A DNA stretch of 37,414 nt from a virus. The notes under the pieces are model-generated. The model made no database searches. It saw only the letters and a program-made list of their open reading frames with translations, and had not been told where the DNA came from. The translations under genes and the position numbers were made by a program. The DNA is taken from positions 1 to 37,414 of the IMG/VR virus record IMGVR_UViG_3300029319_006113, one strand, 5' to 3'. Shown here in pieces: positions 32,932 through 34,004 of this stretch; positions within the stretch are counted from its first letter, which is position 1; the number at the start of each line of letters is the position of its first letter.

Positions 32932-33777
32932 TCATTTTTCCTGATCACACTCCACAATCAATCGACCGAGGAAGTGTGCTACCTGGGGCACCACGGCATT
33001 TCCGAGCGCCTTCAATCTATCTTTGTCCATTCTTGTGGGAAGCCCATCAAGTGCTCTACGAATGCCGGGTTCAAATGCCCACTGACTTGCTCCAACGCTC
33101 CCCCGGAACTCTCGAAGCCCTTCTCTTGCTTTGGCAAAAGGCTCAAGTCCAAGGCTGGAACCTTGCACTGGGCCTCGAAGGGGCTCTTGCCACCGTTCAG
33201 CATCATCCGAGCCTCGCGGTGCGTCATCTCTCCCGCAAGAATCTTCTCTCGATACGCTCGAACATTGCCCTCGCAGGGGCGCATCGGTGACGCCGTTGGC
33301 GTCGGCCAAGGTCGCGACGATAAAAATTCGGGCTCGAAAGTGCGGCGCTCCAACGGCTGAAGCCGGAATAACAGACCACCATGCATCATACCCGAGTGCG
33401 TCAAGGCCTCGCATGACTGTAGGTCCTCCCCTTCGACAGAGGGCTGCGACGTTTTCGAGCAGGACCCATCGGGGCTTCGTTGCTTTGATGCATCGCTCGA
33501 CTTCTGGCCAGAGCCATCTCTCGTCTCGTTCTCCGAGACGCAGTCCTGCGTTGCTGGCTGGTTGGCAGGGGAATCCTGCTGAAACAACGTCAACTGGCTC
33601 GACTCCTGTCCAATCCACTTGCTTGACATCTTCGTATCTCCTCGCGTTCGGCCAGTGCTTGGCCAGCACCTTGCGGCAGAATGAGTCCTTCTCGACCTGC
33701 CAAACCGTCTCCATTCCTGCTCGTTCGAGCCCTAGGTCAATGCCACCGATTCCTGCAAACAGACTCCCGACCTTCAT
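32932..33777 (-). CDS. dcm: DNA C5-cytosine methyltransferase
   Basis: This 281-residue enzyme transfers a methyl group from SAM to C5 of cytosine in DNA. Motif I is SLFAGIGGIDLGLE (5-18), motif IV GFPCQPAS with the catalytic Cys71, motif VI LLENV (about 106-110), motif VIII HFRARIFIV (146-154), and the late motif LKALGNAVVPQVA (about 257-269) closes the fold. The target-recognition segment is short, as in many phage enzymes. ATG 33777 overlaps the upstream gene's stop (ATGA); an upstream start at 33813 is unlikely. About 73% of the gene (33012-33629) also encodes a second frame. It may protect phage DNA from restriction, alongside the 7-deazaguanine system. Confidence 0.92.
   Translation of the reverse strand: MKVGSLFAGIGGIDLGLERAGMETVWQVEKDSFCRKVLAKHWPNARRYEDVKQVDWTGVEPVDVVSAGFPCQPASNAGLRLGERDERWLWPEVERCIKATKPRWVLLENVAALCRRGGPTVMRGLDALGYDAWWSVIPASAVGAPHFRARIFIVATLADANGVTDAPLRGQCSSVSREDSCGRDDAPRGSDDAERWQEPLRGPVQGSSLGLEPFAKAREGLREFRGSVGASQWAFEPGIRRALDGLPTRMDKDRLKALGNAVVPQVAHFLGRLIVECDQEK
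33012..33629 (-). CDS. protein encoded in an alternative frame within the methyltransferase gene
   Basis: A 205-codon frame runs in the +1 phase of the methyltransferase, from its residue 50 to 255. GAGGAG (33638-33643) lies 8 nt before its ATG. The sequence is not shadow-like: SCSKTSQ, then a SGMMHGGLLFRLQPLERRT segment, WPTPTAS, and finally HLNPAFVEHLMGFPQEW. From memory these match a recurring phage protein family (pattern SGMMRNG, LPPLVRRT, WPTPTA, LNP-WVEWLMGFP), seen beside or fused to Dcm-like enzymes. The role is unknown; it may be a partner or specificity factor of the methyltransferase. The overlap itself is certain, the expression inferred. Confidence 0.65.
   Translation of the reverse strand: MSSKWIGQESSQLTLFQQDSPANQPATQDCVSENETRDGSGQKSSDASKQRSPDGSCSKTSQPSVEGEDLQSCEALTHSGMMHGGLLFRLQPLERRTFEPEFLSSRPWPTPTASPMRPCEGNVRAYREKILAGEMTHREARMMLNGGKSPFEAQCKVPALDLSLLPKQEKGFESSGGALEQVSGHLNPAFVEHLMGFPQEWTKID
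33638..33643 (-). promoter_or_regulatory. Shine-Dalgarno site for the nested gene
   Basis: GAGGAG (plus-strand CTCCTC) lies 8 nt before the ATG at 33629, inside methyltransferase codons for Ala-Arg-Arg-Tyr. It is as strong as the sites of neighbouring genes and decides the start of the nested frame. Confidence 0.6.
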
Positions 33778-34004
33778 GGTTTCACCATGACCGTGATCCG
33801 AGTAAATTGACACGTTATGATGTCCCCGGCGCTGGATTTTGCTAGCCGGTCCATCAGGAAAAACTCCTCGTTTTGGTCGAAGTCAAAACCCCATTCCTCG
33901 GAGTCGAAGCAGTCTGAAAACTTCTCCTTAGCCTCCTCCAGTGTCAGTGTCTCTGACTCGTGGCCGTCATATGGCCACTCGAATTTCAAGATGATGCCTT
34001 CCAT
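33774..34004 (-). CDS. acidic hypothetical protein (76 aa)
   Basis: The product has 76 residues and is very acidic in its middle (ESETLTLEEAKEKFSDCFDSEEWGFDFDQNEEFFLMD). GGGAG precedes ATG 34004 and the leader is nearly identical to that at 34728. The stop overlaps the methyltransferase start (ATGA), so the two are coupled. The acidity could make it a DNA mimic, but that is speculation. Confidence 0.5.
   Translation of the reverse strand: MEGIILKFEWPYDGHESETLTLEEAKEKFSDCFDSEEWGFDFDQNEEFFLMDRLAKSSAGDIITCQFTRITVMVKP

Follow-up and report, generated by a model that had tools for sequence, protein, structure and literature searches.

A phage cytosine methyltransferase gene that probably encodes two subunits in interleaved reading frames

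The virus record IMGVR_UViG_3300029319_006113 of IMG/VR (positions 1 to 37,414; all 37.4 kb are referred to here as the window) carries a cytosine methyltransferase gene with a second long open frame inside it, which raises the question of whether these bases encode one protein or two and, if two, what the second one does. The annotated frame, which we call alpha, encodes a 5-methylcytosine (m5C) methyltransferase of 281 residues (32932..33777, minus strand). The ORF stays open as far as a GTG at 33813 (32932-33813, minus strand), and the ATG at 33777 is the probable start. Alpha matches the Pfam family PF00145 (E 3.8e-42) over residues 1-161 only, and it also matches TIGR00675 and phrog_363. 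Among the motifs of m5C/dcm enzymes it has I, IV (PCQ), VI (ENV), VIII and X. The catalytic cysteine of motif IV sits in PCQ (residues 70-72; 33562..33570, minus strand), of which P70 and C71 are invariant in the alignment and Q72 is nearly so, and motif X was placed by sequence and alignment at GNAVVP (32986..33003, minus strand). What alpha lacks is a canonical motif IX: its chain shows a gap there when aligned with L056, L178, L188 and L179.

The second frame, beta, lies entirely within the alpha ORF in the +1 phase (33012..33629, minus strand) and runs for 205 codons from an ATG at 33629 to a TGA at 33012-33014. A Shine-Dalgarno-like GAGGAG (33638..33643, minus strand) is located 8 nt upstream of this ATG, and across relatives the combined Shine-Dalgarno and start signal scored modestly above synonymous permutations (Fisher p 0.013). 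The beta sequence includes WPTPTAS (33288..33308, minus strand), the opening residues of the single PTP module of the window beta, as well as SGMMHGG and LNPAFVEHLMGFPQEW; the alpha stretch EPGIRRALDGLP is read from the same bases. The original prediction had pointed to this frame, its GAGGAG and these motifs, and every detail was verified in the sequence.

Beta is a conserved coding frame. We compared it with permutations in which synonymous codons were shuffled while the alpha protein and its codon usage were kept. Over 50 related loci, the +1 frame contained 125 stops compared to 281 expected, whereas the +2 frame, used as a control, contained 537 compared to 552. The longest +1 frame was far above its expected length (Fisher combined p ~3e-45 over the 50 loci), a value that is too small because these loci share ancestry, although the +2 control shares that ancestry too and was chance-like (p=0.30). 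For the window alone, the open +1 frame had a p of 0.025, and for three loci (L042, L049 and L055) it was individually non-significant. The stops were also counted by region in 38 viral loci, again as observed over expected by synonymous permutation. From motif I to just before motif IV, ahead of the beta start, the +1 frame had 58/61 stops, as opposed to 9/93 over motifs IV-VIII and 1/52 from motif VIII to IX; +2-frame stops in the same loci were 110/120 and 163/147. The onset of the +1 depletion thus coincides with the beta start.

We scored the window with a beta profile that was built leaving the window out, using 1000 synonymous permutations as the control. The +1 frame of the window reached 121.0 bits versus 63.5 +/- 10.4 for permuted sequences, and 0/1000 permutations attained the real score. 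The C-terminal half scored 41.3 bits versus 5.1 +/- 5.9, and the last 21 residues 38.3 bits versus -3.0 +/- 8.6 (0/1000). The N-terminal half scored 71.4 bits versus 55.7 +/- 8.5 (p ~0.03), a match that is for the most part a shadow cast by the conservation of alpha. Beta had been predicted to belong to a recognisable phage family and, indeed, it matches PHROG 1008 with an E of 7e-26. Because the N-terminal part is mostly this shadow, the PHROG match by itself (best stretch 8-116) overstates the evidence for beta and was rejected as sole proof in light of the permutation control; the C half of the match is independent of the shadow. Codon choice in alpha carries a separate signal. Of the alpha codons under the N of the beta motif LNP, 33 had A as their last base and 3 had G (background 0.51, p=2e-7), with counts of 122 versus 5 in a larger set, and the alpha residue at this position is not fixed (E, Q or K).

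Between motifs VIII and IX, beta is the main reading and the annotated alpha frame is the passenger, because both sequence variation and the G+C wobble switch to the beta frame there. The nearest relatives of the window are only ~50% identical to it, and the rate tests were made on 22 streptococcal prophage sequences and ten Kagunavirus phages. The streptococcal set displayed an ordinary alpha-frame pattern in the 5' part. Over the 3' half of beta, the beta frame had a synonymous value of 0.106 and an amino-acid value of 0.035, compared to 0.024 and 0.109 in the alpha frame; variation there was 0.104 at alpha codon position 1, which is the beta wobble position, and 0.016 and 0.022 at positions 2 and 3. 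The reduced synonymous change that had been predicted for the dcm frame was found in this set (permutation p 0.0005), and amino-acid constraint was weak in the N-terminal half of beta. In the Kagunavirus phages the reduction was weak and suggestive only (p=0.07), and the 3' half exhibited variation in both frames. The G+C content by alpha codon position went from 0.71/0.49/0.88 over motifs I-IV to 0.85/0.66/0.61 over motifs VIII-IX in high-GC loci, and from 0.62/0.40/0.65 to 0.72/0.60/0.48 in the window, so that by motifs VIII-IX the wobble has left alpha position 3 for alpha position 1, which is position 3 of the beta frame. In the window, the bases over which the wobble moves to the beta frame encode beta residues 108-185 (33075..33308, minus strand), the proposed target-recognition segment, and in the alpha frame they read as a low-complexity linker between motifs VIII and X.

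The identity of beta is indicated by its conserved end, where its most conserved stretch is found (LNPxFVEWLMGFPxGWT). This end corresponds in the window to LNPAFVEHLMGFPQEWTKID (33015..33074, minus strand), which we read as motif IX; the same bases give ...EPGIRRALDGLPTRMDKDR in alpha. When the beta C-terminal profile was run against single-chain phage methyltransferases, the best scores fell at their C-terminal end, on RRLTPTECERLQGFPDGWT before YRQLGNAV (motif X), with E ~1e-3. The segment RRLTPTECERLQGFPDGWT is the motif IX of these enzymes; the resemblance of beta to it is significant, but the motif is short and the profile match modest. Nested alphas aligned with the single-chain enzymes are gapped at precisely this motif. 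Moreover, three natural variants (L147:3670-4650, L055:4010-5215 and L057:4004-5521) carry LxPxFVEWLMGxPxGW in alpha's own frame, with motif X following at once. The structure model of L147 aligned end to end with M.HhaI (Z 26.5, rmsd 3.1, 251 aligned residues), and its in-line motif IX formed a confident helix at residues 264-271. An AF2 model of beta alone had low confidence overall (pLDDT 62, pTM 0.27), with helix 188-195, the motif IX segment, as the confident C-terminal element; solved structures searched with the beta profile gave no match. Motif IX and the recognition domain together constitute the small domain of m5C enzymes (PMC3404938). Since motif IX is in beta and gapped in alpha, alpha is a methyltransferase that lacks its small domain, which is very likely what beta represents. 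The position of residues 108-185 between motifs VIII and IX points to a role in target recognition.

The beta frame is conserved, motif IX is in beta and not in alpha, and the frame under selection changes in the course of the gene. We consider it highly probable that the locus encodes a two-polypeptide m5C methyltransferase in which alpha (motifs I-VIII and X) and the nested beta (target recognition and motif IX) are written in the same bases. Alpha, in frame 0, would act as the large domain that binds AdoMet and carries out catalysis, with PCQ among its motifs I-VIII and X, and beta, in the +1 frame with its own ATG and Shine-Dalgarno sequence, would provide the small domain for DNA target recognition along with motif IX. 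Both would be made from one mRNA with two starts, beta by internal initiation, and beta would then bind alpha to form a heterodimer that methylates a specific site. The alpha residues between motifs VIII and X would serve as a linker, with beta determining its sequence. The most likely role of such an enzyme would be that of a solitary phage modification countering host restriction.

The original prediction had instead suggested overprinting, in which beta arose de novo inside a complete methyltransferase to which it is unrelated. We regard this as unlikely. Conserved catalytic motifs (IV-VIII) lie under the N-terminal half of beta, and this half must have been overprinted; overprinting holds at most here. 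The notion of an unrelated protein is not supported, since the conserved C-terminus of beta matches the enzyme family's own motif IX, which single-frame relatives have in line. The best reading of beta is that it is the enzyme's other half, because its conserved end is a motif that is absent from alpha and in frame in single-chain relatives. Most likely, the two-subunit arrangement originated from a single-chain enzyme whose segment after motif VIII, up to motif IX, shifted into another frame, while overprinting on motifs IV-VIII gave beta its N-terminal half and a start. Such a frame-displaced split of one enzyme looks more like the origin than does overprinting of a new protein.

Obligate nesting is what one would expect of a two-subunit enzyme. 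A hidden partner that moves with many phage methyltransferases had been proposed, and the coupling was confirmed: the nested arrangement was in the +1 phase at 159 loci and in the +2 phase at none. Homologs likewise lay within dcm genes in the same phase at nearly all of the 80 bacterial loci fetched by the beta motif alone, which ranged from Actinomycetota to Bacteroidota, and at all 27 of the 27 loci reported from sampled genomes. These samples were centred on the genomes of L092 (Paenibacillus) and L134 (a gammaproteobacterial MAG), with the centre genome included in each, and the arrangement was carried by 4/299 genomes from the L092 phylum and 14/299 from the L134 phylum. Homologs outside frames overlapping dcm, the lack of which had been named as evidence against the prediction, were nearly absent; the sole exception is a second beta ORF that follows the alpha/beta pair in an Actinomycetota MAG (L127:4635-5606), overlaps no methyltransferase domain, and keeps the family profile with a wobble of its own (GC3 0.88). 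Two apparent same-frame cases were set aside, L100 as it resembles a broken MAG reading and L144 as a nested partner is present as well.

A separate partner or regulator, such as a methylation modulator, an anti-restriction protein or a DNA-binding protein, would be another way to account for beta without making it the small domain. Indeed, beta is mostly unlike known folds, and L055 and L057, with motif IX back in alpha, retain a long PTP-containing +1 ORF without motif IX; beta may therefore do more than carry motif IX. Nevertheless, the best-conserved element of beta is motif IX, which alpha has lost in the nested forms, and nesting is near-obligate, which makes an independent partner quite unlikely. 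We judged it slightly less probable still that beta is real but made as a frameshift fusion, in which a +1 shift near motifs IV-VIII joins the N-terminal part of alpha to beta. The two frames are one base apart and single-chain arrangements do exist (L147, L055 and L057), but the beta frame is held open upstream over motifs IV-VIII, the window has a start and Shine-Dalgarno sequence with a corresponding signal in relatives, and a fusion that leaves alpha would drop motif X because this motif sits in frame 0. Finally, that the +1 ORF is not a gene at all but a shadow of the conserved methyltransferase frame and its codon bias is hardly credible: such a shadow does explain most of the profile match in the N-terminal half, and GC-rich genes give long open frames by chance, as in the three non-significant loci, but stops become depleted from the beta start onward, codon choice suits the beta residue, selection and wobble move to the beta frame, none of 1000 permutations matches the C half, and the second beta of L127 retains family profile and wobble without any alpha frame.

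Within the two-subunit reading, beta appears to be variable in its modules. The number of PTP modules per beta ranges from 0 to 5, with a median spacing of 35 residues, and differs among the beta ORFs of L032, L035, L019, L115 and others; the length of the alpha linker varies because of this. Multispecific methyltransferases of Bacillus phages (SPR, phi3T) have tandem recognition modules of ~40 residues, which the PTP modules of beta resemble in their ~35-residue spacing, although the modules of SPR and phi3T are in the enzyme's own frame. The second beta of L127 is possibly an extra specificity subunit, with one alpha perhaps serving two betas. We tentatively suggest that beta could be a modular specificity subunit, encoded by the second frame of the linker region of the catalytic subunit: tandem recognition modules, 0-5 in number, with the pattern PTPxAxD...GG..LxxAV recurring every ~35 residues, and then motif IX. 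Gain or loss of modules might then retarget the enzyme with only the alpha linker changing in length, and extra betas, as in L127, might let one catalytic subunit serve several targets, like type I S subunits; we hold this extension to be possible rather than probable.

Two-polypeptide m5C enzymes with a nested gene have precedent. In M.EcoHK31I, which recognizes YGGCCR, the gene for the small polypeptide lies inside that for the large one in a different frame, and M.EaeI is similar; the small gene of the window is likewise nested in an alternative frame. In the characterised enzyme M.EcoHK31I, the larger polypeptide carries motifs I-VIII and X, and the smaller one carries motif IX (PMC3404938). 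The large chain of the window likewise has I-VIII and X without IX, and its motif IX lies in a second, smaller polypeptide, by a resemblance that is significant but short. The published account of M.EcoHK31I places a predicted recognition domain in the large subunit (PMC3404938), whereas in the window family the beta frame governs the sequence from motif VIII to IX, an indication that recognition resides in beta. The window also differs in being a viral contig, and the arrangement is common beyond one restriction system. Because every feature tested was found, we place the window locus with the M.EcoHK31I kind, an assignment made from the published division of motifs and from the nesting. M.AquI (CYCGRG) is another natural two-polypeptide m5C enzyme (PMC3404938), but it is split in the variable region with IX and X both in the small subunit, whereas in the window X remains in alpha. 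M.HhaI and the single-chain phage m5C methyltransferases L056, L178 and L188 have the catalytic motifs of alpha and a motif IX (LTPTECERLQGFPDGWT) that resembles beta LNPTWVEWLMGFPLGWT, but everything is in one chain and one frame. For nested phage methyltransferase pairs we found no description in the open-access papers searched, which is weak evidence of novelty.

Current annotation captures this arrangement unevenly. The E. coli phages N15 (gene 58) and K1G (ORF30/31) carry it, as do Lactobacillus phage Lc-Nu, Salmonella phage NINP13076, Mycobacterium Spikelee, Paenibacillus Jacopo and a Leptospira plasmid. The K1G record annotates both frames (ORF30/31), whereas many other records have alpha only. 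The records of PMG1 (L176), NTEC3 (L197) and EcoPhCCP1 (L201) have beta only, as a hypothetical protein or a methyltransferase, and miss the catalytic alpha. Pfam has no family for beta. PHROG 1008, which matches beta, is labelled 'DNA methyltransferase' though the members examined are the nested second-frame subunit; PHROG 363, which matches alpha, is labelled alike, and PHROGs does not mention the nesting. In Lc-Nu (L172, 1299-2784) there are two adjacent annotated methyltransferases, the first one with a nested beta.

The window phage has other candidate DNA modification genes. On the plus strand, 38-1888 holds a radical-SAM (QueE-like) ORF and a QueC ORF (PF06508, E 1e-32), along with an ORF that by our reading resembles a transglycosylase and has no Pfam match. 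These ORFs suggest that the phage also makes 7-deazaguanine-modified DNA alongside its cytosine methyltransferase.

A large share of the 'Dcm' genes of phages and prophages appear to hold a nested second subunit, from E. coli N15, K1 and BASEL phages to Paenibacillus larvae phages, mycobacteriophages, streptococcal prophages and many bacterial phyla. Very probably, then, what is labelled as one methyltransferase in many viruses and bacteria is a pair of interleaved subunits. Cloned 'orphan' enzymes may seem inactive because annotation keeps one frame and half of the enzyme is missing, and target prediction from the annotated alpha frame would read the linker. The locus also offers a same-strand overlapping gene pair that is very widely conserved and has a visible frame switch of selection, and the natural single-frame variants make the origin of the overlap testable.
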